NCBI GenBank assembly: GCA_028753945.1
Contig: JAPNXP010000001.1
Span: forward strand, 11,522,501-11,586,500
DNA: 64,000 bases
Direction: 5' to 3'
DNA from: Hexactinellida sp. DTS-2022
Taxonomy: Eukaryota > Porifera > Hexactinellida
Under the pieces are notes generated by a model. That model ran no database searches and was not told where the DNA came from. It saw nothing but the letters and a program-made list of their open reading frames with translations. Below are positions 1,796 through 60,726 of the stretch, piece after piece (within the stretch, counting starts at the first letter, position 1; each line of letters opens with the position of its first letter). A program made the translations under genes and the position numbers.

Positions 1796-3031
1796 TTAGA
1801 ATAACTGAATACAGTATTTAGGATTCTCAGACACTACTATAATTCTACCTTCTCTATCCACAGCTATACCAGCAGGAGAGATAAGGTCTCCTCTTCCCTC
1901 TCCTCTCTTCCCAAACTTATGCAGCAGTTGTCCTCTGTTAGAGAATATCAGAACTCTACCAGCTGATGAGTCAGTCATCAGAATATTGAATTCTCTGTCT
2001 AGACAGAAGTACCAAGGATCAATCACCTGATTACCTTCTCCTCGTGTTTCTATCTGTCTAATCAGCTGATGTGAGTAATCATACAAGTGGATACATGGAC
2101 TCTCTTCTGTCAACACTACAATATCTTGTGGTGTCAGCTTGATATCTCTAGGCAGATTAACTTTAGAAATGAATGAATTGAAAGTAAAATTCAAATTCAG
2201 ACAATGAATCCGATTGTTCCAATAGTCACAAATGTAAATTAGATTATCCACTGGTGATACAGCAACTCCACTAGGCAAATCAAATTCCAGTTCTTTATCG
2301 CCTCTTCTTCCAACTGATTGTATGTATCTGCCTTCGATAGAGTATACAGTGAGAGAATCAGCAAGAAACTGAGTGACATAGACTTTCTTAAGATAGATAC
2401 AGATACCATGTGGTGACTTCATCTCTTCACTGAAAGCGAATAGGAATTCTAGAGATTCGTTAAAGACTTGTACTCGGTTATTCCCTCCATCACAAATATA
2501 AATATTATTCGTTTCAGAGTCTATAGCGATTGAATAAGGATAACAGAACTCTCCAGGTGTTGTAGAGGGCTCCTTTCTATGTTTCCCAGCTACCGTCACA
2601 GGATTTCCTTTCTCCCTGTAGTCAGGTGCTCCTCTCACTCGAATCGATCCTGTCCCTCTCAGTATTCCTTCCAGGTCTCCATCCCACTCCAGCTCCACTC
2701 GTCCCATCCTGTCTCTGGCTGTCTCGAGATCAGCTGCTAGCTCTCTCATCTGGGTGTCCAGTAGAGCTACGTGCTGTGCAAGGAACTCTTTGTTCTTGTT
2801 ATCCGAGAGAGTAGCAATAGTCTGTTCCTTGGTTGTTCTCAGCTGAGCAACTTGCCTGTCTACTCCCTCTCCCCTGTAGACATCCTCTAGCTGCTGCAGC
2901 TCTGACAGCAATGCTGTCTCTCTCTCTCGCAGCACCTGGTGAGCTCTGGCTACTCTCTCCCGTACCTCTGCTCGTGCTCTCTCCACCTCTAACAGGAAGG
3001 AACTCTCTACTGGCACATTTGCACTAGCCAT
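1796..3031 (-). CDS. Coiled-coil/NHL beta-propeller protein, copy A (TRIM-like, no RING or B-box)
   Basis: This is an intronless 411-residue protein. The start was set at the ATG at 3031 because it aligns with the start of the copy at 59491; an in-frame ATG three codons upstream (3040) is also possible. Residues about 10-125 are an acidic/basic coiled coil rich in E, R, Q and L. Residues about 150-411 form an NHL-type propeller with repeated blades ending in patterns such as NNRVQVF, NNRIHCLN and GRVLIFSNRG. This resembles the C-terminal half of TRIM-NHL proteins (TRIM2/3/71 type), but the RING finger and B-box are absent, so ubiquitin-ligase activity is not predicted; a binding or scaffold role is inferred. 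It is about 91% identical to the gene at 59491-60726. The coiled coil is nearly identical, and the differences sit in the propeller, mostly as non-silent changes. Flanking DNA is not similar between the copies. Confidence 0.85.
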   Translation of the reverse strand: MASANVPVESSFLLEVERARAEVRERVARAHQVLRERETALLSELQQLEDVYRGEGVDRQVAQLRTTKEQTIATLSDNKNKEFLAQHVALLDTQMRELAADLETARDRMGRVELEWDGDLEGILRGTGSIRVRGAPDYREKGNPVTVAGKHRKEPSTTPGEFCYPYSIAIDSETNNIYICDGGNNRVQVFNESLEFLFAFSEEMKSPHGICIYLKKVYVTQFLADSLTVYSIEGRYIQSVGRRGDKELEFDLPSGVAVSPVDNLIYICDYWNNRIHCLNLNFTFNSFISKVNLPRDIKLTPQDIVVLTEESPCIHLYDYSHQLIRQIETRGEGNQVIDPWYFCLDREFNILMTDSSAGRVLIFSNRGQLLHKFGKRGEGRGDLISPAGIAVDREGRIIVVSENPKYCIQLF

Positions 3032-3435
3032 CTCATGCACTTCTTATACGTTAGATACGTCGTGAAATGTACGTATAATGTTCTTGGATATTTAAATTAT
3101 TAATTCAATATTAAATTGCCTATTCGTTCAAATGAGCAAAAAACAATTTCAACTCCATAGCAGTAAGATGGGTGTCGTGTTACAATAGGAACATTGGCAT
3201 ATTACTTCCACTCTCATCAGGGTTCTCCCTAGGCCTATATCACAAGGTGCATGCCCTTCTTGATAGCTATTGTTCCCTGTAAATACATGTTATAAGTGGG
3301 CTTGTACCCTTTGAGTCAATGGTATAGTTTAATAATACTCACTGCGGTTAGTTAATTAAGCAACTATCAACTCATTATAGTGTTTATAATTTGTTCCAAT
3401 TACCTATGAATTTCAGTCCCAAGTGGTTTCTATAT

Positions 3436-3968
3436 TTACGAGCCCTTCGGTCTCGGTCGCTTTGCAACAGATCGGTGCTACGCACCTCAAGTTAACGGCC
3501 GCTACGCGGCCTTACTCTTCACTAAACAATTGATTGGGAAAGTTATAACTTCTGGGTTGATTTTGAATTTTCAATAATTTGTTAAACTATTTTGTGCCAA
3601 CAACAACAATAAATATTCATATTAGAAATTTATAAATGCGAAATTTGTGTTCAGCATACTTGTTTACCTATTACAGTGGAGCCTCCCATAACGGACACTC
3701 CAAATAACGGACAACCCTCGTGGCACGGATTTATTTATTTAACATATGTCTAATAGAAAGCAACCTCTAAATAGCGGACAACCTCTAAATAACGGACAAC
3801 GGTTCCGGTCCCAAGGTGTCCGTTGTTCAGAGGCTCTACTGTATATCATTTGGAAGTCTATATCTAAATTATAAATGCGGTTTCTATTCCCCATCAAATT
3901 AATACAATCCGGACAAACAAACAAACAAACACATACACAACAATCGAGATTTAATAATCTAGATATAT
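3436..3968. repeat. Interspersed repeat R1, interrupted by a MITE
   Basis: R1 begins with a motif around CCCTTCGGTCTC, continues with GCTACGCGGCCTTACT, then an ACAACAACA stretch, and ends with CAATCGAG plus an AT tail. Copies or parts of the same unit occur at 13777-14170, 20535-20662 continuing at 21995-22270 and 22795-22935, 37195-37495 and 61010-61090. The copy here is split by the TA-flanked MITE at 3672-3843. It ends about 20 bases before the start codon of the dehydrogenase gene, so it probably forms part of that gene's leader or promoter. Confidence 0.7.
3672..3843. mobile_element. TA-flanked MITE (CAGTGGAGCC termini)
   Basis: The terminal inverted repeats read CAGTGGAGCCTC and GAGGCTCTACTG and are flanked by TA on both sides. 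The interior carries several degenerate copies of AATAACGGACA. The uninterrupted R1 copy near 14070 shows the empty site, which supports a TA target duplication typical of the Tc1/mariner-pogo superfamily. No transposase is present. Confidence 0.75.
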
Positions 3969-3986
3969 CCCAAGTTTGTATTATCT

Positions 3987-5189
3987 ATGTTCAAGATATT
4001 GCTCGCCATCCTATTCAGTTTGATACTCGCCCCGCTGCGCGCTGCTTCCCGGTGGCTCCGCTACTGCAGTATTCCGCCCTCCCGAGACAAACACTTCAGT
4101 CGGGAGGTGGTGCTCGTCACCGGGGGGGCCCAGGGCATCGGACGCTTGATCGCCACTAACTTTGCCCTGACAGGCGCCACTATAGTCCTCTGGGACATCC
4201 AGGAGCAGCGCCTGGGGGAGACCCTGGGGGAGATGCGGACAGCCGGACACACGGTGCACGGGTACAGCGTGGATGTTTCGGACCTGGACCAGCTGCTGAC
4301 CGGGTACGAGCGGGTTAAGCAGGAGGTCGGGGAGGTTACTGTGTTGGTGAACAACGCAGGCATCGTTAGTGCTAAGGACATATTCGAAGTCTCTGTGGAG
4401 CAGTTCGAGATGGTGGTTAGAGTCAATCTAACCTCTATGGTCAGTTGTATTATAGTGCACACTAGTGTATTATACAGCCATTTGTAAATACGCTCCTAAT
4501 AATCCCGGTCTGATCCAATTTTAATACGCCTAAATCACAAATTAATGGTACGGTATAGGAGAGGATTCCAAATTTTCGCCATCCTAAATTCAATTACCAA
4601 AAATCATCCAAAAGGAGCGTCTCGCGGTCCTAAATAATTCCTTGGTGCATATCTATGTATAGTCTTATTTATAACAAGATAGTATAATATAGGCAACAGT
4701 TTCAATGCACTTGTTTAGATTCACCTGACAAAGGCCGTGCTCCCGCACATGCTAGAACATAACCACGGATACATCATTAACATCGCCTCTGTCGCCTCCT
4801 ACTACGGGTTCTTCAGACTAGCGGACTACTGCGCCTCCAAGGCAGGCGCGCGTGCCTTCTCAGAGGCCCTACAGTCCGAGCTGTTCTGTATGGACAAGAC
4901 CGGCGTCTCCGTCACCTGCGTCTGTCCCTACAAAATAGACACGGGCATGTTCTCGGGGGTGGCGCTTAAGCACAACTGGCTTTTCCCGGCCCTGCAGCCG
5001 CAGTACGTGGCTGACCGCGTATACTACGGAGCTAGGAACCGCGAGTTCCGATTGCTGATTCCCTGGTCCATGCATCTACTGGTCGGACTATTGTTTGTGT
5101 TGCCGAAACACTCCCGAAGGATTTTTATGGACTTTTTCGGGATTAATGAGTCTATGGACACTTTTGTTGGTCATAGAAAGAAAGAGTAG
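3987..5189 (+). CDS. Short-chain dehydrogenase/reductase, SDR16C (RDHE2/HSD17B11)-like
   Basis: Two exons, 3987-4439 and 4719-5189, are joined by a GT-AG phase-0 intron and encode about 307 residues. Residues 3-20 form an N-terminal hydrophobic anchor, as in membrane- or lipid-droplet-bound retinol/17-beta-hydroxysteroid dehydrogenases. The Rossmann cofactor motif TGGAQGIG is at about 45-52, NNAG at about 122-125, the catalytic Tyr-x-x-x-Lys (YCASK) at about 188-192, and the catalytic Ser precedes it in SVAS. The length matches the classical SDR16C family (about 300). It should be an NAD(P)-dependent oxidoreductase on a hydrophobic alcohol (retinol, steroid or fatty alcohol); the substrate cannot be read from sequence. 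The intron contains a copy of an interspersed repeat also found at 52398-52590. Confidence 0.88.
4467..4640. repeat. Intronic interspersed repeat R6
   Basis: A block containing GCGCTCCTAAT-like and AAAAGGAGCGTCTC motifs lies inside the dehydrogenase intron. A clear second copy is at 52398-52590, and fragments sit near 44335-44490. It is non-coding, and no target duplication was recognised. Confidence 0.6.
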
Positions 5190-5405
5190 GTTTGTTTTAT
5201 GCCCCCCCTCCCCATCGTGAACGAATATTTATTTTATTAGAAATTTAGTCGCTATTTACTCGCTATCTATTTGTTTTTAATTAACCGCTTAAGTGAAGCA
5301 TTCCTTTGTAATGCAGACTGTTCCCAGCTGTGATACAAGAGCAGCTGATCTCTCTATTCTGATCCGTTGGTTTATAGCTCAGCAGTATTGCATGGTGTCT
5401 AACTA

Positions 5406-6284
5406 ATGTCTCAGGACTGCATTATCCACAATAACGACTTGGTACTCTACGTGAGTGTCCTGCTCGTGTTTGTGTTGGTGCTCCCCCTGCTGGACCTCAT
5501 TATCCTGAGGGTAACCTGGTTCTACAGAGACGACCTCTTCCTCCCGCCTACCCGAGAGCGGGGCGGCTCACACAAGCCCTCTATCCGGAGGGGGGACAGC
5601 TACTTCTCGCGGTCCCTCTCCTCCGCCTCCACCCCCAACCGCTCCGTGCACCCCCTGGCTAGGACGCAGGCCACTATTATTTTCGCGAACGAGGATTCCC
5701 CTGACGAGCAGCGGAGGCGAGAATACGCTATTGTCTACGGGAAGCCTCAGCCCAAGCCGGAGTCTGGGGAGATAGTAGAGACCTCTCAGTCCAGTGAGGG
5801 GCAGAGCTCTCGGTTCAGAATAGCGGAGAGGCGCTTCGAGCGCCACGCCGCGGTGCTTATAGATCCGCTGCCCGCCATAGAGTCGCCCTCCCTCCGCGAG
5901 CTGTCCGCTCGGAGGAGAGCCGAGAGGTCTCTCGCGGCAGACGCGACTGGTGACACCTTTGTGAATATAGCCGCAGAGAGACTACAGCCCGCGCTGACCC
6001 GAGTGGTGCCTGTCTCCCTCAAGCCAGCCCTCCTCCCGCCCCTGCCCACTGCCCGCACCTCGCACCAGAGCAGCGAGTTCCTGGCGAGACTGGCGGACAC
6101 CAGCATCCTGTACCAGGACAACTTCGACGTGGCGTACGTGCACTCCCGCACGGAGCTAATCGAGACCTCCATTCGGGACTCGCTACCGCAGAGAGACAAG
6201 CTGCTCAGCCGACCCGACAATGTTAGGAGGAAATTATCCAAACTTGATTCCCGACAGCCGAACTCCCCCAGTCCCCCCAAGTGA
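5406..6284 (+). CDS. Unknown single-pass membrane protein with a basic, Ser/Pro-rich tail
   Basis: This is an intronless 292-residue reading frame with the high GC of the window's other real genes. It starts at the first ATG after a spacer with stops. Residues about 12-35 form a strong transmembrane segment (runs of V, L and I), preceded by a short polar N-terminus. The remainder is a hydrophilic tail rich in R, S, P and E without a recognisable fold, ending in a PNSPSPPK tail. Coding reality is supported by composition and length only. I do not recognise the family; a type III membrane protein with a cytoplasmic disordered tail is the simplest description. Confidence 0.65.
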   Translation: MSQDCIIHNNDLVLYVSVLLVFVLVLPLLDLIILRVTWFYRDDLFLPPTRERGGSHKPSIRRGDSYFSRSLSSASTPNRSVHPLARTQATIIFANEDSPDEQRRREYAIVYGKPQPKPESGEIVETSQSSEGQSSRFRIAERRFERHAAVLIDPLPAIESPSLRELSARRRAERSLAADATGDTFVNIAAERLQPALTRVVPVSLKPALLPPLPTARTSHQSSEFLARLADTSILYQDNFDVAYVHSRTELIETSIRDSLPQRDKLLSRPDNVRRKLSKLDSRQPNSPSPPK

Positions 6285-7150: not shown

Positions 7151-8917
7151 ATGAGTAATAAAGCGAGACACTCGGGCCCCGCCGGCCCCAAGGAGCGCGC
7201 GTACCACCTCCTCAAGATGGAGGTCGTTGTTATAAAACTCATAAGCGAGCCCAACAAGCTGCCTGTGCGGACTCTGAAGTCGCTATTCCGCACCACCCCC
7301 GCCGTCTCTGTATTCACCGGCAACGAGCTGGTCAGCAACATAATCAGCAAGCTGCAGACGGACCGACGGGAGGCGCTACACATCGCATCTCAGCTCTACA
7401 AGTACGGGTACCTCTACGCCGTGGAGCCGGGCGTGGCCGCTCTGAGGGACGACTCCACTCTCTACCGGATGCAGGCCGAGGAGAAGTGGCCCTCCCAGTG
7501 CCCGAGCCCCACCAACCTGGAGTACTCCGTGTTCCTGGAGAAGCGGCTGCTGCTGCGACAGAAGCTGGCCGAGCACGAGCAGGACGCGTACGAGCGGTTC
7601 AGCGTCACCTACGCGCGCGGGTGGGAGGGGCTCCGACTACGGGCACAGGATGAGATCGCCGCCGAGGAGCGGGAGACGCGGGAGGGCCGCTGGGTGATGC
7701 AGGGCGAGGAGCGGGCCTTCTGGAGGCTGCACCGCCCCCCGCCCGGGGAGCCGCTGGTTATGGAGTGCTGCATACAGAAGCGGAACCTGAACAGAAGCCA
7801 GATATCGGACTTTGAGGTTGTGCAGGATTTGGAGACTCGAATCGATGTGTACAGGAGAGCAGCCAAGCGCAACCGAGTGAAGAGCTCCCACTCAGCTGAC
7901 CTCATCATTGGAAACGTAGAGAAGATATCTAATCAGGACCCATTCCTGAAGAAGAACTCCTCCAACCATTGGACCAATGAGCACAAGCTCTCCAACAGCT
8001 CCATTTCTGCCGACAAGATCCGGGCCTGGAGCGTATCGTTTGAGTGTCTGATTAAAGACATGGACGGGAGGGACCTGTTTATGGAGTTTTTGAAGTCCGA
8101 GGTTTCAACTGAGAACCTCACTTTCTGTGAAACGGTTACCGAATACAAAATGCTTCCTACCTCTCAGCTGCAGATTAGCGCGCCGCTGATATTCCAGCAG
8201 TACGTGGGCCCCACGGCTAGAAACGAAATTAACATCGATGGGAAGACGCTACGGCTTACCAAGGAGAGGATGGAGAGGCCTAACAGATACACGTTTGACC
8301 TGGCTCAGAACTACATATACGATCTCATGCGAAAGGACCCCTACCTTCGATTCCTGAAATCTCATTTCTACACGGACGCTGCTAAAAAGCATGGCATTGA
8401 CAAGAAATCCCGACGCATCTCAAAATTGACAAACCAGCCTCTCAACGCGCAATCTCTCAACCCACACAGAGGCTCAGTTTGCGAGGCTCACTCTAACGAG
8501 CAGGTTATGATTGTCAGGTCAAACTCTATGGACGCAGTGGCCGAGGTCACCAGTGCGGTCTCTCCCTCTCGCGGCTGCGTAACCGGAACTAAGGGCTCTC
8601 TTGATGACGACAGCAATCGGCGGAGTGGCAGGCTCTACAGGAACTCAAGTGGTATCCACTTTAGTGATTCGGACACAAACAGTTCCCCGGGGCATCAGAA
8701 GGGACAGGAGTTAGAGCCAGCCACTATGCAGATCTGTCAGAGTCTGAATGCGAACTCGCTAAACAGCCCCTCCCACACGAACAGGGCCAGCAGCAAATCC
8801 TTTGAGGAGAAGTCCTTCTCTTCGCCCCGGGCCCCCGATCTTAAGAACTTTCCTAAACCAAAAACTTCTCTATCACAAGACGATGGATCCAAAATACGAC
8901 AGAATATATCTCCTTAA
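7151..8917 (+). CDS. R7-family regulator of G-protein signalling (RGS6/7/9/11-like)
   Basis: This is an intronless protein of 588 residues. Domain order is that of the R7 subfamily: DEP about 37-108 (SLFRTTPAVSVFTGNELV), the helical linker about 110-200, a G-gamma-like GGL segment about 222-275 ending in the characteristic DPFL and W, and an RGS domain about 296-408 (FLKSEVSTENLTF, RYTFDLAQNYIYDLM, YLRFLKS). The tail of about 180 residues is Ser/Asn-rich and probably disordered. R7 proteins accelerate GTP hydrolysis on Gi/o alpha subunits and bind G-beta-5 through GGL and membrane anchors through DEP; those partners are inferred. In the helix that usually reads ENLxFW, the W is a Cys here. 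Vertebrate homologues have many exons, so the lack of introns is notable. Confidence 0.9.
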   Translation: MSNKARHSGPAGPKERAYHLLKMEVVVIKLISEPNKLPVRTLKSLFRTTPAVSVFTGNELVSNIISKLQTDRREALHIASQLYKYGYLYAVEPGVAALRDDSTLYRMQAEEKWPSQCPSPTNLEYSVFLEKRLLLRQKLAEHEQDAYERFSVTYARGWEGLRLRAQDEIAAEERETREGRWVMQGEERAFWRLHRPPPGEPLVMECCIQKRNLNRSQISDFEVVQDLETRIDVYRRAAKRNRVKSSHSADLIIGNVEKISNQDPFLKKNSSNHWTNEHKLSNSSISADKIRAWSVSFECLIKDMDGRDLFMEFLKSEVSTENLTFCETVTEYKMLPTSQLQISAPLIFQQYVGPTARNEINIDGKTLRLTKERMERPNRYTFDLAQNYIYDLMRKDPYLRFLKSHFYTDAAKKHGIDKKSRRISKLTNQPLNAQSLNPHRGSVCEAHSNEQVMIVRSNSMDAVAEVTSAVSPSRGCVTGTKGSLDDDSNRRSGRLYRNSSGIHFSDSDTNSSPGHQKGQELEPATMQICQSLNANSLNSPSHTNRASSKSFEEKSFSSPRAPDLKNFPKPKTSLSQDDGSKIRQNISP

Positions 8918-9048
8918 TAGCTGGTGTCTCCCGACTGCTCACCCAAAGAGTACGGCATTGGATTCTGCTCTGTTTATTCCTGTATAGATATATATTTCGT
9001 ACCCATAGGCCATTGATGTACTTGTTTTGGTATTTTAATTAATTGTTC

Positions 9049-17639: not shown

Positions 17640-18481
17640 GCTTAACCCGGCTGTGCTCGTGTGCACACGTACGCAGGCACTGGAGATTTGTCAGCAATGA
17701 TGAGTCGCTTGAGAGAGAAGTATCCTCACATGAAGTATATCGCAGTGGGGTTCTCACTGGGTGCTAATATTCTGCTCAAATATTTGGGAGTTCTTATGTG
17801 CCCAGTCCTGGTGCTAGGGGTACACACTAACACCTGTCTCCCTCACATGAACAATAAGATCTGCTCTCACAGACTGGTTAACTACCTTATGACCAACAAG
17901 AAGGCCGAGACACTACTCTGATGGATGTTTTGTATGGAGGATCCCCTAGGGACTCTCTGGACCCAACTTTAATTGGAAATGAATTGGATTCCAAATCCTA
18001 CCAAGAAAATACTGATGGTACACTTGAATACAAATCCAAGCCCCTAATGTGTGGTGCCAGGCTTATAAATAACTACATTGATATTAATTGTTAATAATCT
18101 ATAGTTTAACAGATGTTCCAATTTGATAGCTTTGGACACCACCTTCACTCGGACCTGCTTGGCTTCAAAACTATTTATGAACTCTACCGCTGGTCTGCTT
18201 CACTGCACGTGATGGACCAGATTAGGGACTTTCCAATGCTCCTAGTCAACGCAAGAGATGACCCGATGATACCTGGGCGTGTTGCACAGGATATACTGGA
18301 TAACTACAGTAGGGTGAATAGGAATGCAATAGGAGTAATACCTCAACACGGTGGACATCTGGGATTCTATGAAGGGTCTTGTTTTGCTATAAATCGTGTT
18401 TCTTGGGTGGATAGAGTATCTATTCTCCACGCGAGGAGTATAGTACATATGAGGTCTGGAGATTATACGGATAAAGTGTAA
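17640..18481 (+). pseudogene. ABHD-like hydrolase copy 1, decayed
   Basis: Remnants of exon 3 (17640-17792, with the nucleophile motif GFSLGA) and exon 4 (about 18108-18481, with RDDP and GGHLGF) match copy 2 downstream. Relative to copy 2 one C is lost near 17660 (GTGCTCGTG versus GTGCCTCGTG), which shifts the frame. The middle of exon 3 is degenerate, and the start of exon 4 has another frame break before LGFKTIYELYRW. Exons 1 and 2 are not found. The last 100 residues are almost identical to copy 2, which suggests recent origin or gene conversion. Confidence 0.8.
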
Positions 18482-21700: not shown

Positions 21701-23335
21701 ATTTACTTGGGAATAGAAATTGGTACGTCATATCTGAGTACGTATTAACTGAATCATTTATAGTGGATCAAATAGGAGGAAAAATCGGCTAATAGAGTAT
21801 GTAGTATCCGAAAGTACGTCTTAAGACTCGTAACCCTACTTCATGCAGCTGCAGGAACAGTAAATTTGCTTTCGATGATTTCGTGAGTGTGTAATTTGTA
21901 AAAAAATTTGATGCTGGGGTCATAAAGATTACGTATAAAAAATTTGGTGCTTTTGTCCAGCGTTTCCCGAAATCGATGTTAAGCGACCTGACTACTACCA
22001 TTTCCCATAGTTTTAACTTATTACAAATAATATTATAATACCCGTTGAAAGCTAGCTTCTAGGTTGATTTTGAATTATTATCAATTTGTTTACCTATTTT
22101 TGGTAAACAACAACAAATATTCATATTAGAAATCTGTGAATGCGAAATTCGTGTTCATTCATACTTGTTTACCTATAATACCCGTTGAAAGCTAGCTTCT
22201 AGGTTCATTTTGAATTTTCATCAATTTGTTTACCTATTTTGGTAAACAACAGCAAACAATATTCATATTAAGCATGTATCATAGCATTCTATACATAAGG
22301 CAATGGCACCACACTCAAATTTCTGGACCTGAGATTGGTTAGTATGTTCAAACTAAATATTTGCAATGCAATTATTTGCATGCTTTTTTGCAGCATGCTG
22401 TGCTTTTATCACGGCATACTTGCATTATGCGCTAAATGTGTATAACCATTTGAATGTATATTACATTAATCACATTTGTCGGAAAATTGGTTGGAGATAG
22501 AGCATCGAAATATATTATCAATGAATAGGAAGTTGAGGAACGGCTATCAATTGAATCCATTGACTAAGTTGTAACTATATTCCTTCTCGAGATATGTCCT
22601 CCAGCATTTAAATTACGTTTACAAGGAAACAGAGCAATGTAGTAACATTCCACATTTGATTATGAGATATTTTATGTAAACTGAATAATTGCATCGCATA
22701 TATTTAGTTGAATATACTAACCAACACCTGTCCAGAAAATTGAGTGCCATTGCCTTATGTATGGAATGCTATGGCAGCTATGCATGTATCAAAATCAGCA
22801 TACTTGTTTACCTATTATAACATTTGGAAGTTAATTTATATCTTAATTATAAATGCGCTTTCAATTTCCCCCTTAATAGAATCCGGACAAAAAAAACAGA
22901 CAACGATCGAGTTTAAATAATAAAGATATAGAGAGTGCATTAATTCAGTAATTGTAGTTTAACAGAGTGACGGGCATCGAATCAATGGATGCTAGCTTCA
23001 ACCGAGCATTCCTCGGGTTCCACACAACAGAGGACTTCTACCGCTGGTCTGCCTCACTGCACGTGATGGACCAGATTAGGGACTTTCCAATGCTCCTAGT
23101 CAACGCAAGAGATGACCCGATGATACCTGGGCGTGTTGCACAGGATATACTGGATAACTACAGTAGGGTGAATAGGAATGCAATAGGAGTAATACCTCAA
23201 CACGGTGGACATCTGGGATTCTATGAAGGGTCTTGTTTTGCTATAAATCGTGTTTCTTGGGTGGATAGAGTATCCATTCTCCACGCGCGGAGTGTAGTAC
23301 ATATGAGGTCTGGAGATTATACGGATAAAGTGTAA
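18734..23335 (+). CDS. Alpha/beta hydrolase, ABHD1/3 (EMB8/YheT)-like, copy 2
   Basis: Four exons, 18734-19014, 19315-19550, 19840-20516 and 22958-23335, all with GT-AG borders, join in frame to about 523 residues. Residues about 14-37 are a transmembrane anchor. The nucleophile elbow GFSLGG has its Ser near 218, the acid lies in NARDDP, and the His is in GGHLGF. A Ser/Pro/Glu-rich insertion of about 90 residues follows the core strand region in exon 3 and ends at GYLIEGWEHVPPF. Family members act on phospholipids or other esters at ER or membrane surfaces; the substrate is not readable. Intron 3 is 2.4 kb and made almost wholly of nested repeats (R1 split by R3 and R2). It is the second member of the tandem family. 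Confidence 0.85.
21222..21375. mobile_element. hAT-like MITE (CAGTGGCGGCGCCAG ends)
   Basis: Ends CAGAGGCGGAGCCAGGATTT and TGGCGCCGCCACTGG flank a G/C-run interior (GGGGGGGCC, GGCCCCCC). A second copy is at 61909-62038. Ends of this kind are common in hAT-type elements of many animals; assignment is by the end sequence only. Confidence 0.65.
21428..21762. mobile_element. MITE of the CAGTCGAACTCGGTTAAGA family
   Basis: It shares ACTCGGTTAAGA, GGTACGTACTAACTGAGGTACG, CATAATCCACAAGTCGAAAT and TACGTACTAACCGA blocks with the intact copy at 24502-24832. It is nested inside R3. Confidence 0.7.
22274..22790. mobile_element. R2 element, copy inside R1
   Basis: Inverted ends of about 55 bases (CATAGCATTCTATACATAAG with its complement near 22750) enclose the relic of the GCATGC minisatellite and the CTTCTCGAGATATGTCCTCC block seen in the 14345 copy. 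It is inserted in R1, between ATTCATATTA and AATCAGCATACTTG. Confidence 0.65.
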
Positions 23336-28522: not shown

Positions 28523-30286
28523 TCAATACTGGATGCAGTACTTTTGTAGAATAATCCACACTTTTTGTTTCCAGTGTTTAGAAAATTCGAAATCGTCGTC
28601 AGTAGAGTGGTAAAAGGGCAATTTGATCCTGTGTGCATCTAAGTACCATTGACATAATATCTCAACCATCTCCTGACTTGTATCTAATTCCATTAATCTC
28701 ATTTCCGGAAATTCAGTTGGTGGAAAATGCTCATGTCGCCAGTCGAATAGTTCACGGAAAGACAGGTCCAATCTTTTATCAAGTTCGTGATGGAATTTTG
28801 ATAGTGGAGTCTTTGTTATTATGGAATCTATTATTTGACATTTCTTTGAGTTAAGAAACTCGAATACTTCTTCGCTTGTCTTTCTTGTGACGTTGGTCTG
28901 AAAAATCGATTCTTCGACACCACTAAAAGGAGACGATGCTATGTTGATATTTTCATCGAAAGAATCATCTTCAGTTAGGGAATTCAAACGCTGGAATTTG
29001 CTAGGTGGAGTTTCTGTAACACTGTTTGATCTCTTCAGAAGTTTTACTTTTGATCGTTTTATACGTTGGATAGATTCATTTCGAAGGATCTGAACCGTAG
29101 CACGATTCACTTTTGTAATTGGATAAGGACCGACCCATTTATCTTGTAGCTTCCCTCCTTTCTTGCGCTTGCTTCGATTAATATTTTCGATCAGAACATC
29201 ATCTCCCTTTTCAAGTTGACTAAAAGCGACCGGGTTTAATCTCTTATCGTATTGCTTTTTAATAAGTGTTTGTGAATGAGTAAGATGTTCTCCGGCTATT
29301 TTGCTATTAGACTCTTGGGCCTCTTGTACGTAATCAATCAATTCTTCAAACTGCTCATCTCCAGACCACTCAGCTAAAGGTGTGTCTTCTGGATACTGAT
29401 GAGTTAAATTTTTCGCTTGGAGAGGAAGCCGAGGTTTTCGTGAACCATGCATGAGCTCAAAAGCCGAAAAAGATGTAGTAGCTCTTGGCCTGATATTGAT
29501 TGAGAATGTTATCTCTTCAAGGAAATTTGACCAGTTTTCGTTTTTTTCGTCCAAAGATTTGACGAGAGATCCTTTAATAGTCTTGTGACTCGCCTCGACT
29601 AACCCGTTTGTTTGAGGATGGTAGGGAGTGGAGAAGATAAGCTTACAATTATAAGCTTCATGCAAAGATTTGGATATTATATTCGTAAATTCACGCCCGT
29701 TATCGCTAATGATTTGGACTGGTGACCCTTGTCTACAATATATCGAGTGTATACCTCTGGCTACTTCAGCAGCTTCTTTCGAGCGTAATGCACGGGTTTC
29801 AATCCATCTTGTAAAGTGATCTATCATTGTCAAGATGTATCTGTAACCATTAGAATCGATGAGTGGTCCAGTTAAGTCCATGCCGACACGATACCAAACT
29901 TTGGTGATTATAGGTAGAGGTTTTAAGGGATTAATTGGCGCTTTCAAACTTGGTTGATTCTTCTGACAGCGTATACATGTATTAATATACGTTTCAATGT
30001 ATCTGTACATGCTTGGCCAATAGTACCGATCTTTTGATATTTTATAAGAATATCTAGGACATTGGGGTCCAGAGTTATCGTGGATTTCTTTGAGGATGTC
30101 TTCCAACTCACTGTCTCTTATTACTAATAAACGATTCCCCTGGGAAGGTCGAATCAATTTACCAGATTCAAGCCCGTAATTAGCAGCCTTTTTACGAATC
30201 ATCCTCTTCTGGTCCTTTGTAGAGGGAACAGGGTATGATTTTAAGCTGATGTAGTTGGAGATAGCTTCATATTCTGGAGAATTCAT
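28523..30286 (-). CDS. DDE integrase/transposase (H2C2 + rve + GPY/F), Ginger/Gypsy type
   Basis: 587 residues, uninterrupted. Residues about 60-110 are the zinc-binding N-terminal domain (EIHDNSG.., YYWPSM, CIRCQ); the second His of the usual HHCC set is not obvious (a Cys at 76 is the nearest). The catalytic core has D137 (GMDLTGPL), D195 (IISDNGREF) and E231 (NGLVEASHKT), a D-x35-E spacing. A GPY/F module follows at about 390-430 (DKWVGPYPITKVN). The C-terminal 160 residues are acidic with no known domain. The intact frame suggests recent activity. It is flanked by long inverted repeats rather than LTRs, which separates it from a retrotransposon. Confidence 0.85.
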   Translation of the reverse strand: MNSPEYEAISNYISLKSYPVPSTKDQKRMIRKKAANYGLESGKLIRPSQGNRLLVIRDSELEDILKEIHDNSGPQCPRYSYKISKDRYYWPSMYRYIETYINTCIRCQKNQPSLKAPINPLKPLPIITKVWYRVGMDLTGPLIDSNGYRYILTMIDHFTRWIETRALRSKEAAEVARGIHSIYCRQGSPVQIISDNGREFTNIISKSLHEAYNCKLIFSTPYHPQTNGLVEASHKTIKGSLVKSLDEKNENWSNFLEEITFSINIRPRATTSFSAFELMHGSRKPRLPLQAKNLTHQYPEDTPLAEWSGDEQFEELIDYVQEAQESNSKIAGEHLTHSQTLIKKQYDKRLNPVAFSQLEKGDDVLIENINRSKRKKGGKLQDKWVGPYPITKVNRATVQILRNESIQRIKRSKVKLLKRSNSVTETPPSKFQRLNSLTEDDSFDENINIASSPFSGVEESIFQTNVTRKTSEEVFEFLNSKKCQIIDSIITKTPLSKFHHELDKRLDLSFRELFDWRHEHFPPTEFPEMRLMELDTSQEMVEILCQWYLDAHRIKLPFYHSTDDDFEFSKHWKQKVWIILQKYCIQY

Positions 30287-30524
30287 TAGGAATGAACGTT
30301 AAAGTAGGAAAGTTCTCTTCGAGCTAACAAATTTTAGTAGAAAATCAATTTTTGTTAATTAAAGTATATCAAATCAATCTTACAAAATTGGACGCATAGA
30401 ACGTTACGTAAGTTACCGCTCACAAGGGAGGGGTGGCTGGAAAACTCCGACAGCTAATGTAAATAGATAGGCAGAAACACAGGAGGTGTTAAAAAAACCG
30501 AAACTTGGCTTTAAATAATGTTTG

Positions 30525-30757: not shown

Positions 30758-32819
30758 GCGTGATATATCAAATTATCGGAAATTTACTTGGAAACCGAAT
30801 TCGACAATATAAAGACGATATAACTTAATTTGAACAAGTTTTTATGGGAAACAAGTCCGGCGAACACTATCGAACGTGTTAACTTTGACGAGCTGTCATG
30901 GCCGATATAGACACTCTTTCAATTGCTTCAATATCCAAAAATGTTCGCACTACATCAAAGTACATGTGTACAAATTTTGGTGCTTTTATCAAAAAATGAA
31001 CAATCTGTTGAAATTTTATGTCTATGGTGCTGGACTATAATACACTGCGATTGACAGGGTCTCTGAAGGAAGAGAGAGTTAGCTCCGGAGCTCCCCGATT
31101 TTACAGCTACGGAGGCACTGGAGACTTCGCGGCTATGATCGAGTTCCTCGCGAGAGAATTCCCTAGCGCTAGGTTCATCGGAGTCGGACTCTCCCTTGGT
31201 GGCAATCTCTTGCTGAAGTATCTTGGAGAGGAGCCTAGGAGACAGGAGCGCTTTCTGGGCGCCCAATCCTGGTGCCAGGGGTATGACGCGGGGAGGTGTT
31301 TCCGAGATAGACGTCACTTTGGGTTAGCAACTCGACTTATCTATAGAGTTGTTGTAGCTAAAATAAAGTACAGAATACGAAAAAAGAATTACTTAGACAA
31401 GTTATTTGGTCCTAGAACAAATTCCTCCGTGACCTATCCCGTATCCAGGGTGCACACCTACGCAAGAGTGAGGGACAGGAAGCCGGGGCCGATTGATCGT
31501 ACCAGGGACGATAATGGATACCTGCTAGAGGGGTGGGAAGATATTCCTCAATTTAATCGGAGAGAGGTAAGTTACAGCTTTTAAATTCCAATATCAAGGT
31601 TTTTACAAGGATATCATATATAATGTAAAATTTACACAAAAATATTATGTGATTAAACTCTAATTTATGCAATGGCAGACTGATTCACACTTTAATTTAT
31701 ACTCTAATTATCTAAGATTAAACTGTGATAAAATTCTTGAAAATACTGCCAGTGATAAGAGCAGTAGCATTACAACTTATATTATTTCTTTAGTTTAGGA
31801 AGAGTGACTCTATTATTCTCCTGGACGCTGCCTTTATGCTTCCTCTGCTCGGGTTCAAGACGGTAGATGAGTTGCATGATTGGTCTTCTTCACATTCCTA
31901 CATGGGCAAGATTAATAGCCTACCCCTCCTACTGGTTAACTCGAGGGATGACCTCCTCATTCCTTGGTCGATAGCAGAGGAGATCCTGGGAGATTACTGT
32001 CGAGTTGTTAATCATAATGCAGTGGGAATTATGTGTGACACTGGGGGACATTTGGGGTTTTATCAAGAATCTCGTTTCTTGCCTCCTCGCGTTAGTTGGC
32101 TGGACCAGGTTTCCATTCAGCACGCGAAGAGCTTAGTGCAGTTAGAAACTAACCAATCGCCTATTCATAGTGAATAGTAGGCAGCTCTTATTTAGAATTT
32201 TTTTTAAAAATATAGTTAATTCACTTAGAATTTTATTTCATTTTCATCACAATTGATATTTTATTACATTTATACTATTTTATAGAAACATTTTACTTTA
32301 TTCAAAAAATCTAAAATTGCAGCTGTACCTATAGTATGTTCCTTGGAGGCACTATCTGTTGGTGATTGGTTGTTGATAGTGCCTCCAAATTTTAGATTTT
32401 TGTCACGTTATCATCGTTATAATGGTGTTAAACAATGTTAGAAAGGTGTTTCAGAAGCCAACGACCTTTAGAGTGGTGGAAGTTTCGTTTTATCTCACTT
32501 CATTTCAGAGATATTATAGTTTCCGTACTATTATAATCGGTGATGAGTCTGCATTTTTTCCGTGCATGTTGGGTGTTCACCCGTGGCCAACCAACCCATT
32601 CGAAATATCGAATTCACAAAATTGTAAGAGCATTTTTTGACGATGTCATCATCTCCTCAAGGTGTCAAAACCCGTTTGTCGAGGTGTTACGTGACATAAT
32701 GATCAATTGATAAATTGGAAGTTTGTTTCTCTGTGATTAATGATATTTAGCTAATTAGTGTAAAACTTATTAATATTACTAATAATTAACACCAATTTTT
32801 ATTTTTTAAAAATAATAAT

Positions 32820-37587: not shown

Positions 37588-39967
37588 ATGGAGTGTCAAT
37601 TCTTTCTCTCAGCTCTACTGATAGCTTGTATTGCAGTATCGCTACTCTTTCTCAGAAACTATTTATTTCCAAATGAGTCCGTCAATATAACCCTCTACTA
37701 TGCGGATAATCTACAAAATCGGGAGAGAATATCCTTTCTTCCTCAACTCAGACAATATTACAATCCTCAGTTATTGTTCCGAAATGGCATTGTCAGTACA
37801 CTCATTTTTGGGGTGATTGGGAGGTAAGTTTATTTATTTGTACTTCATGAATGATATAGTAGTAAGTAGTAACAAGTTAATCGTGCCATACATGATGCAT
37901 AATGATGGGTGCAACAATTTTATGCAATTTATTGCGTTTACGTGCAACATGTTGTGGATATCTCAACATGTACGGTGCATGAAACATTCCAATAGACACG
38001 ATTCAACAATGTTGCATCGTGTATGGTAGGCTTGGGATTGTATGTCACAAATAATTTTTTCGTTTGTAGTTGCTTGATACTTTACTAATTTATTTACTTT
38101 ATTGCCATCAGTTGAAATCTCAAAAGCTGACTATTCACCTGTTCTTGTTGTTGTTGTTGTTGTATACAGATTTGGAAGAAGACAACCTAACCCTGAAGGG
38201 AGGAGACAGAGAGTCCCCTTACCAGATGGAACTGAGTGCATATTCGACCTGTTCCTAGACCCAGTAGGGAAGGACCCTATTCTTGAGAACGTAATTATTG
38301 TTCTACTGCCTGGGATATTTAACCACAGTAATATAGACTATGTAAGGGCTTACATTGAGTACGCGTCTAGTCAGGGATTCAAAGTGGCCTGTTACAACCA
38401 CCCTGGTAAGCACTACTAAGCCTTAGAGTATCTTATAGCTGTTTCATGAAATTCATTTTCATAAAATTCGATTTCATGAAATTCTTTTTCTTGAAATTCG
38501 ATTTCATGAAATTCACTTTTCATGAAATTCACTTTTCATGAAATTCGATTTATGAAATTCGATTTATGAAATTCGAATTCATGAAATTCATTTTCATGAA
38601 ATTCACTTTTCATGAAATTCGATTTCATGAAATTCGATTTCATGAAATTCACTTTTCATGAAATTCACTTTTCATGAAATTCGATTTCATGAAATTCGAT
38701 TTCATGAAATTCGATTACATGAAATTCGGTTTCATGAAATTCCTTTTCATGAAATTCGATTTCATGAAATTCTTTTTCTTGAAATTCGATTTCATGAAAA
38801 TCATTTTCTTGAAATTCGATTTCATGAAATTCCTTTTCATGAAAATCATTTTCTTGAAATTCTTTTTCTTGAAATTCGAATACATTGAAATTCATTCTGA
38901 ATTTAAGTGTTGTTTATTGTTATTTTAAGTTGGCTAGCACCGCCACTTTGTGTCCATTCTAATTTACACCTAATACTGGCATCACACTGCGTTATTATAC
39001 TATCTACAGGTTGTGTGCCCGGAGAGAGAGTTAGCTGCGGAGCTCCCCGCTTCTTCAGCTACGGGGGCACTGGAGACTTCGCGGCTATGATGGAGTTCCT
39101 CGTGAGAGAATTCCCTAGCGCTAGGTTCGTCGGAGTCGGACTCTCCCTTGGTGCTAATGTCCTGCTGAAGTATCTTGGAGAGGAGCCTAGGAGACAGGAG
39201 CGCTTTCTGGGCGCCCAATCCTGGTGCCAGGGGTATGACGCGGGGAGGTGTTGCCGCGATAGACGTCAATTTGGATTAGCAACTCGACTTATCTATAGAA
39301 TTATTGTTGCTAAAATAAAGTACAGACTACGAAATAATTACTTAGACAAGTTATTTGGTCCTGAAACAAATGGTCTGCATTCCTCCGTGACATATCCCGT
39401 ATCCAGGGTGCACACCTACGCAAGAGTGAGGGACAGGAAGCCGGGGCCGATTGATCGTACCAGGGACGATAACGGATACCTGCTAGAGGGGTGGGAAGAT
39501 ATTCCTCAATTTAATCGGAGAGAGGTAGGCAGACAGATATTATATTCCAATATACAGGGTAACTTATATTCTCTCTTTAGTTTGAGAAGAGTGACTCTAT
39601 GATGCTCCTGGATACTTCTATTATGCTTCCTCTGCTCGGGTTCAAGACGTTAGAGGAGTTGCATGATTGGTCTTCTTCACATTCCTACATGGGCAAGATT
39701 AATAGCCTACCCCTCCTACTGGTTAATGCGAAGGATGATCCCCTGGTTCCTTGGTGGATAGCAGAGGAAATCCTGGGAGATTACTGTCGAGTTGTTAATG
39801 ATAATGCAGTGGGAGTTATGTCTGAATATGGGGGACATTTGGGGTTCTATCAAGAATCTTATTTCTTGCCTCCTCGCGTTAGTTGGCTGGACCAGGTTTC
39901 CATTCAGCACGCGAAGAGCTTAGTGCAGTTAGAAACTAACCAATCGCCTATTCATAGCGAATTGTAG
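37588..39967 (+). CDS. Alpha/beta hydrolase, ABHD1/3 (EMB8/YheT)-like, copy 4
   Basis: Exons 37588-37823, 38170-38405, 39010-39524 and 39581-39967 join in frame (same intron phases as copy 2) to about 457 residues. Residues about 5-22 are a membrane anchor. The nucleophile motif is GLSLGA, the acid is in NAKDDPLVP, and the His is in GGHLGF. The insertion after the nucleophile domain is shorter than in copy 2 and more basic (IIVAKIKYRLRNNYLDKLFG). It is complete, with canonical splice sites. Intron 2 is filled by a 15-base minisatellite. Its closest relative in the window is copy 3. The substrate is unknown; membrane-associated esterase or phospholipase activity is inferred from the family. 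Confidence 0.88.
38450..38890. repeat. 15-bp minisatellite in intron 2 of ABHD copy 4
   Basis: About 29 units of roughly ATGAAATTCGATTTC, with TTTC/CTTTTC/TTTTCTT variants, fill the intron between 38450 and 38890. Period 15 is a multiple of three, so long open frames exist on both strands. They are an artefact of the period. Confidence 0.9.
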
Positions 39968-52680: not shown

Positions 52681-52719
52681 AGTACTGTGCTTACCTGGTT
52701 TCCACTCAGTCCAGTTGGA

Positions 52720-57044: not shown

Positions 57045-59165
57045 ATGATGGATATAATTCGAGCCATAAACACGGGTACTTGCATAGAGGATTTGCTAGA
57101 GGAGGCTACGTACCTTGACGAGCTCTCCCTAGAGCCGCACCCGCCCCTCGGCGACGAGCAGATGCAGCTGTTGCACCAGGTCACCAGCTCTCTCTGCAGA
57201 GAAGCGCTCATTCTGCTCGCGCTGGGGCCCACCGGCAGCGGGAAGACGATAACCCTGAACCGACTCACGGCCGGACTGGTGCATCTGGATGTGGGGAAGC
57301 GCAAGAGCCAGGTGGAGCCCCTCTTCCGACCGGACACGTGCGACCTGTTCGACGGACGGCACCCCACCTGCTACGTGAGGGAGTTCGACTTCTCCTCCAT
57401 CCCGCCCAAACGCATGCTGGGCATAGAGCCTCTGGACACGCCCCTCAAGCTAGCTGTCATCGACACGCCGGGGTTCACAAACAAAATACAACTCAACGAG
57501 GAGATAATAACGAACGGACTCAAGTCTCTGGATTCGTTCCTCGCGACTTGCAAGCAGTCCCTGAACAGTCCCAAGGCGCAGGTGTTCGTGGTGTACTTCC
57601 TCAAGCAGACCTGGACCTGGAGCAAGGTGGACTCTAAGATTATGAAGGCCATCCAGCAGTACTACGGGACTGTCAACATGTTCTGCATAACGCACTCCCT
57701 GGTGGTGCCAGCCTTCATACAGCATCCGCTGCCGGAGGAGCTATCCGAGTTCAAGAGTTTGGATTTGCCGGACATAAACTCTCTGCGGGAAGAAGAAGAC
57801 TCGTACCTGGAGCTGGTTAGCGAGGCGGACAAGCTGGCCGCTCAGCAGGGGTTCGAGAAGAGCTGGATCTCCCTCTACAAGCGTCTCTTCAGCCTCTCCT
57901 CCCACGTCACTACCATAAAGGGGTATGTCAAAGATGCGCGAATCATCTTCTTCGAGAACTCGCCGAATCTCTCCAGCAGCAGCGACCTCGGTCTGGCCAA
58001 CCTAGTCTTCAAGTTCTCCCGCGGGCTCAACTACAACTACGGGAGTTTCTTCACGATCCTTACCAGCGCCGACGTGCTGCACTCCGCCACGCAGTACCTG
58101 CTGCTGCCCACCTCGCTGGACCGGAGTCGCGTGAGCAGACTTCCCGTGGAGCGGGAGGAGGCGCTGCTCTCGCCATTCCAGAAGTACGACATAGACTGCG
58201 TCCGGAAGGGACAGATGGACTTCTTCGAGGAGTGCAGGGGGGTCATAGAGGACATCAGTCGCGACAAGATACACAGGATAAGTCGCAGCTTCTTCAAGTC
58301 CAGTCTCCCCTCCGTGGAGGATGGGAAGCCGCTGCAGAAGTCGGACAGCCCGCACCGGTTCGTCTCTCAGGACAGCTCCCGCTCCTGCAGCTCCACCCTC
58401 TCGGACACGGACATCAGCAGCAGCGCCTCGGACAGCGAGGGCAGTCGCCGCGTCAAGCTGAAGCTGCGCAGCATAAAGGCGCTCTGGTCCGACCTCTTCG
58501 AGAGTCGGGAGGAGGGCTTCCAGTTCCTCACGGAGGAGACCAAGAACATCCCGCAGTCCACGCAGCCCAACCGGAAGTACCCGCGCATCCACCTGCGCGA
58601 CAGGCTGGACAAGCCAGAGCTGTGCGCCACGGCCCGCAGGAAGAGCGCGCCTCTCTTCTCCAGCATCGGACTGTTCAACCCGGAGCTCGCGCTGCTGCTC
58701 TCCAAGAAGAGAGCCTCGGACCCCTCCACGCCCTTCCACCCGGCGGACTCCTCCTCCAACAACATCCGACTGAAGAAGAGCCACTCGGAGTCCCCGATAT
58801 CGGCCCGAGCGCCGCCCCCCTCGAGAGCGCCGCTCTCCAAGTCCCAGCTGAGCAGACCGCGGGCCGGCTCACAGGTGCTCCGGTCTGTCAGCGAGGGCTG
58901 CTTCACTTTGGAAAAGAAAGAAGCCAGGCCACCCAAGGTAGTGAGAGCCCCGCCTCTACAGGTCCTGCCCAATGACCTGGAGGAGACAATAGTTAACTTG
59001 ATAGGAGACGAGCGCAAGAGATGCATGCTTTGTAAGGAAAATGTTATTTATTCGATTTGTCCCAAGTGTAAGAGAGGATATTGCGAAGCGTGTGTCGTCA
59101 CATTCTCTGGGTTCCAGAAAATTTGTAAATTTGATTCATCTATTATGGAAAGTGTCTCTTTATAA
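57045..59165 (+). CDS. P-loop GTPase-like protein with C-terminal cysteine-rich domain
   Basis: An intronless protein of 706 residues (a second ATG follows at codon 2). Walker A GPTGSGKT is at 61-68 and the G3-like DTPG at 140-143 (AVIDTPGFTNKIQ). The G4 NKxD/TKxD motif is not evident, with THS at the expected place (FCITHSLV). The G domain of about 280 residues resembles TRAFAC/septin-AIG1-like GTPases in general layout. A disordered Ser/Arg-rich region follows (about 430-640), and the last 50 residues have eight Cys in CMLC, CPKC, CEAC and later positions, suggesting a RING- or B-box-like zinc domain. I do not recognise the exact family. A GTPase that couples to ubiquitin or protein binding is a guess. 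Confidence 0.75.
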   Translation: MMDIIRAINTGTCIEDLLEEATYLDELSLEPHPPLGDEQMQLLHQVTSSLCREALILLALGPTGSGKTITLNRLTAGLVHLDVGKRKSQVEPLFRPDTCDLFDGRHPTCYVREFDFSSIPPKRMLGIEPLDTPLKLAVIDTPGFTNKIQLNEEIITNGLKSLDSFLATCKQSLNSPKAQVFVVYFLKQTWTWSKVDSKIMKAIQQYYGTVNMFCITHSLVVPAFIQHPLPEELSEFKSLDLPDINSLREEEDSYLELVSEADKLAAQQGFEKSWISLYKRLFSLSSHVTTIKGYVKDARIIFFENSPNLSSSSDLGLANLVFKFSRGLNYNYGSFFTILTSADVLHSATQYLLLPTSLDRSRVSRLPVEREEALLSPFQKYDIDCVRKGQMDFFEECRGVIEDISRDKIHRISRSFFKSSLPSVEDGKPLQKSDSPHRFVSQDSSRSCSSTLSDTDISSSASDSEGSRRVKLKLRSIKALWSDLFESREEGFQFLTEETKNIPQSTQPNRKYPRIHLRDRLDKPELCATARRKSAPLFSSIGLFNPELALLLSKKRASDPSTPFHPADSSSNNIRLKKSHSESPISARAPPPSRAPLSKSQLSRPRAGSQVLRSVSEGCFTLEKKEARPPKVVRAPPLQVLPNDLEETIVNLIGDERKRCMLCKENVIYSICPKCKRGYCEACVVTFSGFQKICKFDSSIMESVSL

Positions 59166-59490
59166 TTTTTATGTATTTGTACACCTCTGTACATACATAC
59201 ATACAACCATTATTCTGATAAATATATTTCATATAGTATATCTTATTATGTCGAGTTAAATTATATTCCTGTTTGCATAGAGTGGTCAAGTTATAAGCCA
59301 GTTATCCTGAGTTATCAAGGTATACTCAATATAACCTCAATATACGCCGAACTTTTTAAAGCGACATATTCAAAAAATTACAGATATAATAAATTAAAAA
59401 ATTAAGCATTTACCAAACTCTTTCACTAAATAGTTAATTACAGTGTTACACTATAGTCTTTAATAGCGAGGCTAATAATTGAGTTGTAGA
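59166..59490. other. Short AT-rich spacer
   Basis: It contains the 3' UTR of the GTPase-like gene and the upstream region of NHL copy B. Nothing else is recognised. The sequence directly upstream of the start has no similarity to that of NHL copy A. Confidence 0.5.
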
Positions 59491-60726
59491 ATGGCTAGTG
59501 CAAATGTGCCAGTAGAGAGTTCCTTCCTGTTAGAGGTGGAGAGAGCACGAGCAGAGGTACGGGAGAGAGTAGCCAGAGCTCACCAGGTGCTGCGAGAGAG
59601 AGAGACAGCACTGCTGTCAGAGCTGCAGCAGCTAGAGGATGTCTACAGGGGAGAGGGAGTAGACAGGCAAGTTGCTCAGCTGAGAACAACCAAGGAACAT
59701 GCTATTGCTACTCTCTCGGATAACAAGAACAAAGAGTTCCTTGCACAGCACGTAGCTCTACTGGACACCCAGATGAGAGAGCTAGCAGCTGATCTCGAGA
59801 CAGCCAGAGACAGGATGGGACGAGTGGAGCTGGAGTGGGATGGAGACCTGGAAGGAATACTGAGAGGGACAGGATCGATTCGAGTGAGAGGAGCACCTGA
59901 CTACAGGGAGAAAGGAAATCCTGTGACGGTAGCTGGGAAACACAGAGAGAAGAAATCTACAACACCTGGAGAGTTCTGTTATCCTAAGTCAATCGCTATA
60001 GACTCTGAGACGAATAATATTTATATTTGTGATGGAATGAATAACCGAGTACAAGTCTTTAACAAATCTCTAGAATTCCTATTCGCTTTCACTGAAGAGA
60101 TGAATTATCCACATGGTATCTGTATCTATCTTAGGAAAGTCTATGTCACACAGTTAGGTGCTGATTCTCTCTCTGTATACTCTATCGAAGGTAAATACAT
60201 ACAATCAGTTGGAAGAAGAGGCAAAAAAGAACTGGAATTTGATTTGCCTAGAGGAGTTGCTGTATCAAATGTGGATAATCTGATTTACATTTGTGACTAT
60301 TGGAACAATCGGATTCATTGTCTGAATTTGAATTTGACTTTCAATTCATTCATTTCTAAAGTTAACCGTCCTAGAGATATCAAGCTGACACCACAAGATA
60401 TTGTAGTGTTGACAGCTGGAAGTCCATGTATCCAATTCTATGATTACTCACATCAGCTGATTAGACAGATAGTAACACAAGGAGAAGGTAATCAGGTGAT
60501 TAATCCTTGTTGCTTCTGTCTAGACAGAGATTTCAATATTCTGATGACTGACAGATCAGCTGATAGAGTTCTGATATTCTCTAACAGAGGACAACTGCTG
60601 CATAAGTTTGGGAAGAGAGGAGAGGGAAGAGGAGACCTTATCTCTCCTGCTGGTATAGCTGTGGATAGAGAAGATAGAATTGTAGTAGTGTCTGAGAATC
60701 CTAAATACTGTATTCAGTTATTCTAA
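59491..60726 (+). CDS. Coiled-coil/NHL beta-propeller protein, copy B
   Basis: An intronless protein of 411 residues, starting at the ATG at 59491 (MASANVPVESSF). It has the same layout as copy A at 1796-3031: coiled coil about 10-125, NHL propeller about 150-411 with NNRVQVFN, NNRIHCLN and DRVLIFSNRGQLLHKF blades. Compared with copy A, the first 150 codons differ at only two adjacent codons (QT to HA). The remaining 260 codons differ at 33 amino acids but only 6 silent positions. Changed residues recur at the start of successive blades and at the turn before the last strand. No RING or B-box is present. Function is unknown; a family of paralogous binding proteins with a varying recognition face is inferred. 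Confidence 0.87.
   Translation: MASANVPVESSFLLEVERARAEVRERVARAHQVLRERETALLSELQQLEDVYRGEGVDRQVAQLRTTKEHAIATLSDNKNKEFLAQHVALLDTQMRELAADLETARDRMGRVELEWDGDLEGILRGTGSIRVRGAPDYREKGNPVTVAGKHREKKSTTPGEFCYPKSIAIDSETNNIYICDGMNNRVQVFNKSLEFLFAFTEEMNYPHGICIYLRKVYVTQLGADSLSVYSIEGKYIQSVGRRGKKELEFDLPRGVAVSNVDNLIYICDYWNNRIHCLNLNLTFNSFISKVNRPRDIKLTPQDIVVLTAGSPCIQFYDYSHQLIRQIVTQGEGNQVINPCCFCLDRDFNILMTDRSADRVLIFSNRGQLLHKFGKRGEGRGDLISPAGIAVDREDRIVVVSENPKYCIQLF

Follow-up and report, generated by a model that had tools for sequence, protein, structure and literature searches.

The window analysed here, a 64,000-nucleotide stretch of the glass sponge Hexactinellida sp. DTS-2022 (contig JAPNXP010000001.1, positions 11,522,501 to 11,586,500), contains two related genes, copy A on the minus strand (1796..3031) and copy B on the plus strand (59491..60726), each a single open reading frame (ORF) of 411 codons plus stop that encodes a predicted coiled coil followed by an NHL propeller. 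The copies are 91% identical and lie ~57 kb apart, and the intervening DNA holds other genes and a retroelement integrase. Codons 1-150 (2582..3031 in copy A, minus strand; 59491..59940 in copy B, plus strand) encode the coiled coil, the homogenised portion, and codons 160-411 (1799..2554 and 59968..60723, on the same respective strands) encode the six-bladed propeller, whose top face is variable. The initial annotation of this DNA had placed both coding sequences exactly. It described codons 1-150 as differing at two adjacent codons only, which is correct for the amino-acid changes at codons 70 and 71, but a silent change at codon 41 had been overlooked and three codons differ. Its tally of 33 amino-acid and 6 silent changes in the second part is reproduced by our recount of codons 151-411 (39 differing codons), as is its remark that several changes are multi-base, with 11 of the 33 amino-acid changes requiring two or three base substitutions per codon.

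Pfam assigns an NHL propeller to the window proteins (PF01436, E 8e-21, plus related propeller models), and their best sequence matches and best Foldseek matches in PDB are likewise the NHL domains of TRIM71/LIN41 (TRIM71: E 8e-21, template modelling score 0.85 by target length); two of the top three PDB fold matches have RNA bound. The propeller is well defined in the AlphaFold2 model, with block means of the predicted local distance difference test (pLDDT) mostly >90. The long helices of the coiled-coil portion (residues 11-52, 55-75 and 81-110) are predicted with low confidence, at a block pLDDT of 52-70. Neither a RING nor a B-box was among the Pfam matches of both window proteins and of one member each of two other subfamilies, and neither NACHT nor WD40 was among the Pfam families matched by the window proteins. 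B-box matches numbered at least 20 genome-wide (43 candidates scored). The idea that a RING or B-box is joined through an upstream exon found no support, the open frame of copy A beginning just 4 codons before its ATG.

Within the one reference genome examined (112.4 Mb, 18 contigs), copy A found at least 102 matches, 17 of them in a 226-kb cluster around the window (2 partial) and 2 at C1:10.56 Mb; a hand count puts 80 of these matches at full length with no stop. Searches started from two other clusters yielded at least 103 and at least 102 matches. Because a hand comparison finds 10 places shared by the copy A set and that of the first cluster query and none shared with that of the second, the coiled-coil-NHL family occupies at least about 297 matched places, a hand count that includes fragments and loci split over two entries. 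Matches to the NHL profile, in the best 150 of 2268 candidates, occur on all 18 contigs and mostly in single ORFs. Outside C1, 84 of 104 match positions are no more than 1 Mb from the end of a contig, compared with 36% expected, in a tally of 144 distinct kilobase positions from the same best 150 in which some genes are counted twice and clusters are not independent; this suggests a concentration of NHL genes near contig ends (for example on C7, C17, C14, C6, C13 and C5). In 11 of the 18 contigs, the opening 60 bases showed no telomere repeat. A search for innexins gave no match, but neither did its controls. Several members (L046 and members of the C6 and C17 clusters) carry one stop codon in an otherwise open frame, as birth-and-death evolution would lead one to expect.

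Four subfamily samples were compared. S1, the subfamily of the window, comprises 17 copies, 15 from the cluster and the 2 at C1:10.56 Mb, the partial copies at C1:11473065 and C1:11616519 being dropped. S2 comprises 15 of 18 sequences, excluding L043, L044 (partial) and L045 (60% identical, C3) and including L046, whose single internal stop was handled as missing data. S3 comprises 12 of 20 sequences, the remaining 8 standing outside the subfamily tests, and S4 comprises 9 copies (8 propellers plus L078) at C1:13.67-13.80 Mb, added after the test positions had been fixed. In addition, 120 relatives were listed from ENA, of which 92 (395-425 amino acids) entered the variability test, 41 the trees and 10 the identity comparison; these proteins appear to come from another species, because no match of at least 90% occurs among the matches listed. 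Values given below in threes refer to S1, S2 and S3, and those in fours to S1-S4.

The variable positions of the propeller follow a repeated geometry. The RNA contacts of zebrafish LIN41 are Cys563, Arg564, Arg581, Ser582, Arg611, Lys628, Asp629, Tyr658, Trp660, Arg676, Arg707, Phe722, Arg752 and Arg770 (PMC5908797). Placed by hand (offset 415), these 14 contacts fall into five classes, namely P-2, P-1 and P+1 in the inner strand together with D+1 and D+2 in the b-c turn, and the five classes in six blades define a test set T of 30 propeller positions. In both copies these are codons 163, 164, 166, 182, 183, 205, 206, 208, 222, 223, 251, 252, 254, 270 and 271 in the first half, and 292, 293, 295, 309, 310, 337, 338, 340, 355, 356, 384, 385, 387, 403 and 404 in the second; blade anchors were placed by eye, and the variable residue 402 of blade 6 was taken as D and hence lies outside T. 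Variability across the family peaks at P-1, P+1, D+1, D+2 and D+4, and the Pro is nearly invariant. The initial annotation had located the changes between the two copies beside this Pro and in the turn preceding NNRV/ADSL/SPCI/SADR, and the same positions prove to vary family-wide. When the register of T is moved by 1 to 12 residues in either direction, mean variability falls at every shift in S1-S3. Among the 30 propeller positions with the highest variability, 16, 19 and 15 belong to T in the three subfamilies (hypergeometric p 1e-9, 1e-13 and 2e-8), as do 18 of 30 in the ENA proteins (n = 92). At the 14 LIN41-contact positions alone, diversity is 0.59, 0.63 and 0.59 vs 0.14, 0.20 and 0.18. 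Bottom loops vary less than top loops (0.147/0.279, 0.197/0.330 and 0.202/0.291; p 0.003, 0.004 and 0.04), with sites assigned to the two faces according to the predicted model and LIN41. Trp makes up 5.5, 1.6 and 2.2% of residues at T, against 0.0% in the remainder of the propeller, and T is also enriched in Tyr, Ser, Asn and Gly, a composition resembling that of antibody loops. A modest increase of Arg at the face is seen in S1-S3.

Positive selection is concentrated at the same positions. The pairwise ratio of non-synonymous to synonymous divergence (dN/dS) at T is 0.350/0.188 = 1.87 in S1 (17 copies), 0.457/0.350 = 1.30 in S2 (15 copies), 0.380/0.242 = 1.57 in S3 (12 copies) and 0.411/0.121 = 3.40 in S4 (9 copies), and for the rest of the propeller it is 0.059/0.097 = 0.61, 0.089/0.225 = 0.39, 0.081/0.225 = 0.36 and 0.033/0.087 = 0.38. 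Non-synonymous divergence at T amounts to 3.6, 2.0, 1.7 and 4.7 times the synonymous divergence of the surrounding propeller, and the codon-bootstrap intervals of the difference between them lie above zero in S1, S2 and S3. Site models that allow omega >1 (M8) fit better than those with omega = 1 (M8a), with twice the log-likelihood difference reaching 302.6, 107.9 and 84.4, and when codons 151-411 were divided into three segments, each with its own tree, all nine M8a-M8 tests gave p ≤0.017. Propeller sites with posterior >0.95 fall inside T in 15/24, 14/18 and 7/11 cases. By structural location, top loops hold 18/24, 14/18 and 7/11 of the positively selected propeller sites and bottom loops hold 2, 1 and 1; the strands account for 4, 3 and 3, of which 3, 3 and 2 are the first residue of the inner strand.

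The coiled-coil half shows a different pattern. Its pairwise dN/dS values are 0.014/0.018, 0.062/0.119 and 0.095/0.184, and silent diversity over codons 1-150 is below that of the propeller by a factor of 5.6 in S1 and 1.85 in S2 (p 0.0002 for both). Within S1, identity of the coiled coil is 0.968, vs 0.835 to ten ENA relatives, and the corresponding values are 0.838 and 0.808 for the propeller, 0.502 and 0.411 for T alone, and 0.884 and 0.862 for the rest of the propeller. A coiled-coil tree of S1 with 41 ENA and 4 S2 proteins sets S1 apart by one branch (length 0.157, support 1.000); with the same sequences, the propeller tree has an S1-separating branch of 0.008 (support 0.712), and no such split without T. 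This contrast points to homogenisation of the 5′ part, since a recent origin of the whole gene would give like branches in both trees. Copies whose coding sequences match copy A at 91-96% identity nevertheless have flanks that fall into mutually unalignable classes, and site pairs showing all four gametes make up 32-36% at <50 bases and 42-49% at greater distance. Gene conversion explains both the unlike flanks and the four-gamete pattern, to whose count recurrent mutation can add. In blastn comparisons with 2.5-kb flanks, the alignment of copy A with 12 of its 16 fellow cluster copies starts ≤42 bases from the ATG, and the ~10 bases 5′ of its ATG (3032..3041, minus strand) lie near the upstream end of the conserved unit. 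Retroposition was considered as the source of this homology limited to the coding sequence and rejected: several copies share alike flanks over up to kilobases and no poly-A tract occurs in the 110 bases following the last codon of copy A, so that conversion or duplication fits better. Separately, codons 61-90 of the coiled coil are highly diverse in S2 and S3 (proportion of silent differences 0.36 and 0.48, of amino-acid-changing differences 0.12 and 0.22), as if alternative segments circulated by conversion.

Diversifying selection plus gene conversion in this family is thus well supported. Our full account, which we favour as probably correct, places both window genes in a very large germline-encoded coiled-coil-NHL family. 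In it, positive selection diversifies amino acids on the top rim of the propeller, with the remainder purified on average, and the 5′ coiled-coil half is homogenised among S1 copies, for which gene conversion is the best explanation; the copies also seem to recombine. The constant coiled coil, with no RING or B-box of its own, may pair the protein with itself or with a shared partner; pairing with RING-bearing partners, or a scaffolding function, is a guess. Each propeller would then show a different ligand face, yielding a putative repertoire of intracellular recognition proteins, and a role in non-self recognition is likely, candidate targets being viruses, mobile elements, microbes or other individuals.

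The alternative that survives best, though we judge it unlikely, is that these proteins are diversified, Brat/LIN41-like sequence-specific RNA readers, each for a different host, viral or transposon RNA. The known TRIM-NHL proteins (LIN41/TRIM71, Brat, TRIM2/3/32, Mei-P26) share the six-bladed NHL propeller, and in them too a coiled coil precedes it; RING, B-box and filamin domains were not found in the tested members of the window family. The positions diversified here belong to the classes that contact RNA in LIN41, the best folds include RNA-bound TRIM71 and LIN41, and the slight excess of Arg at the face would suit such a ligand. However, the face carries on average a small positive net charge (1.2, 1.3 and 2.2) and spans -3 to +5, unlike the basic LIN41 pocket; a common nucleic-acid ligand is therefore not indicated. 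The top face of propellers also serves as a protein-binding platform. The RNA-contact residues of LIN41 are mostly identical between species (PMC5908797), whereas the matching positions of the window family are hypervariable. Given a face with a surplus of Trp, Tyr, Ser, Asn and Gly and no consistently basic character, protein or mixed ligands appear at least as likely as RNA.

We consider allorecognition improbable; under this reading the polymorphic faces would label individuals in a sessile or colonial species and serve in fusion or rejection responses. The nearest published geometry does come from such a system, the NWD genes of Podospora anserina (het-d/het-e/hnwd), which are WD40 non-self-recognition genes in a family under concerted evolution (PMC1805685). 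Their beta-propellers too carry the selected residues on the top platform, as one pair astride a conserved d-a loop residue and another in the b-c turn (PMC1805685). The likeness is one of geometry, not ancestry: the fungal repeats are WD40, carried on NACHT proteins, with 10 genes and near-identical repeats (PMC1805685), whereas the window family has diverged NHL blades, hundreds of varying animal paralogues and its homogenisation on the coiled coil. Hundreds of dispersed genes would also better suit a broad repertoire than one compatibility locus. Still less credible is selfish or neutral growth of the family, with genes riding mobile elements without a host role; the presence of NHL matches on every contig, mostly as single ORFs, and the stop codons in some copies are compatible with it, but most copy A matches are full length and open, purifying selection acts outside the face, and the alike flanks extend up to kilobases, as in segmental duplication.

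Several observations weigh against our account. Two outcomes had been named beforehand as speaking against a changing ligand face, a dN/dS below 1 in the propeller, which is literally what the whole propeller gives (0.84, 0.52, 0.49 and 0.80), and a scatter of variable sites over both faces and the core, which is not what we find; the whole-propeller average conceals selection concentrated on few positions. The difference between dN and dS at the same T codons excludes zero in S1 only, with the S2 and S3 intervals including it. The M8 statistics come from a custom small implementation on FastTree topologies, whose optimiser ended at 220 evaluations for all three S1 and two S3 models, and recombination can inflate such tests, an objection that the segment trees answer in part only. 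The variable sites of S1-S3 and the ENA consensus were known before T was fixed, leaving the nine copies of S4 as the sole clean later test. As for the coiled coil, its silent diversity in S3 is just 1.2 times lower than in the propeller (p 0.12, not significant), and the segment itself rejects M8a in S1 (p 2e-5; sites 7, 85 and 134), in S3 (p 2e-7; sites 79, 90, 96 and 105) and weakly in S2 (p 0.045), so the coiled coil is not wholly frozen. The breadth of the face charge counts on the same side. The proposal in the initial annotation of selection for a changing ligand face is nonetheless supported for S1-S3 as well as for S4, the cluster added later, and its suggestion of a coiled coil kept uniform by constraint or gene conversion holds as conversion in S1 and as lower silent diversity in S2 but does not extend significantly to S3. 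The part in innate immunity, allorecognition or transposon/virus restriction that it put forward is a putative one.

Relaxed constraint, with top-face codons drifting neutrally after duplication, draws on the moderate whole-propeller ratios and on the S2 and S3 intervals that include zero; it is very improbable, as omega = 1 is rejected against omega >1 in the whole alignments and all nine segments, and non-synonymous divergence at T exceeds the silent divergence of the surrounding propeller in all four subfamilies. Targeted hypermutation of T codons without selection is barely credible, for although differences of two or three bases account for 42-53% of the amino-acid-changing codon pairs at T vs 20-26% elsewhere, silent differences in amino-acid-identical pairs are not consistently raised there (T/elsewhere 0.115/0.088, 0.165/0.188 and 0.214/0.187), making a mutation hot spot unlikely.

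The window also holds other features. A DEP-DHEX-GGL-RGS protein, assigned by Pfam and presumably of the R7 RGS type, is encoded by one long ORF at 7151-8917 on the plus strand, and a retroelement-type integrase ORF with Pfam Integrase_H2C2 and rve matches lies between both NHL genes at 28523-30298 on the minus strand. Repeated, mutually alike ORFs, several with the motif GHLGFY, occur at 18110-18481, 22958-23335, 31012-32177 and 38907-39967 and look like tandem copies of one enzyme family, which we take to be of the alpha/beta-hydrolase type; two were tested and gave no Pfam match at 1e-5.

A close parallel in architecture is offered by fish finTRIM/btr/trim35 and primate TRIM5alpha, which also form multigene sets with a coiled coil followed by a C-terminal domain bearing hypervariable selected loops; they differ in carrying B30.2/SPRY where the window family has NHL, and in having RING and B-box, neither of which was found in the tested members (PMC3137616). 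Vertebrate TRIM genes that lack SPRY/B30.2 form group 1, which by exclusion takes in the NHL class; they are described as strongly conserved, their Ka/Ks ratios between human and mouse suggest purifying selection, and the TRIM sets that evolve fast and are species-specific consist of SPRY genes (PMC2533329). We found no report of a comparable hypervariable NHL family among the papers listed first in the open-access journal literature. The broader proposal, on which we stand evenly balanced, is that the animal maintains an anticipatory germline repertoire of ~300 or more intracellular NHL propellers, with a platform convergent with that of fungal WD40 proteins and a coiled coil homogenised separately. 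If true, the NHL propeller would be a variable-recognition scaffold, new among the few known inherited recognition repertoires, that would have arrived, by a convergent use of the propeller platform suggested by this analogy, at the same geometrical solution as the fungal WD40 recognition genes, and the family would supply ready natural propeller variants for binding studies.

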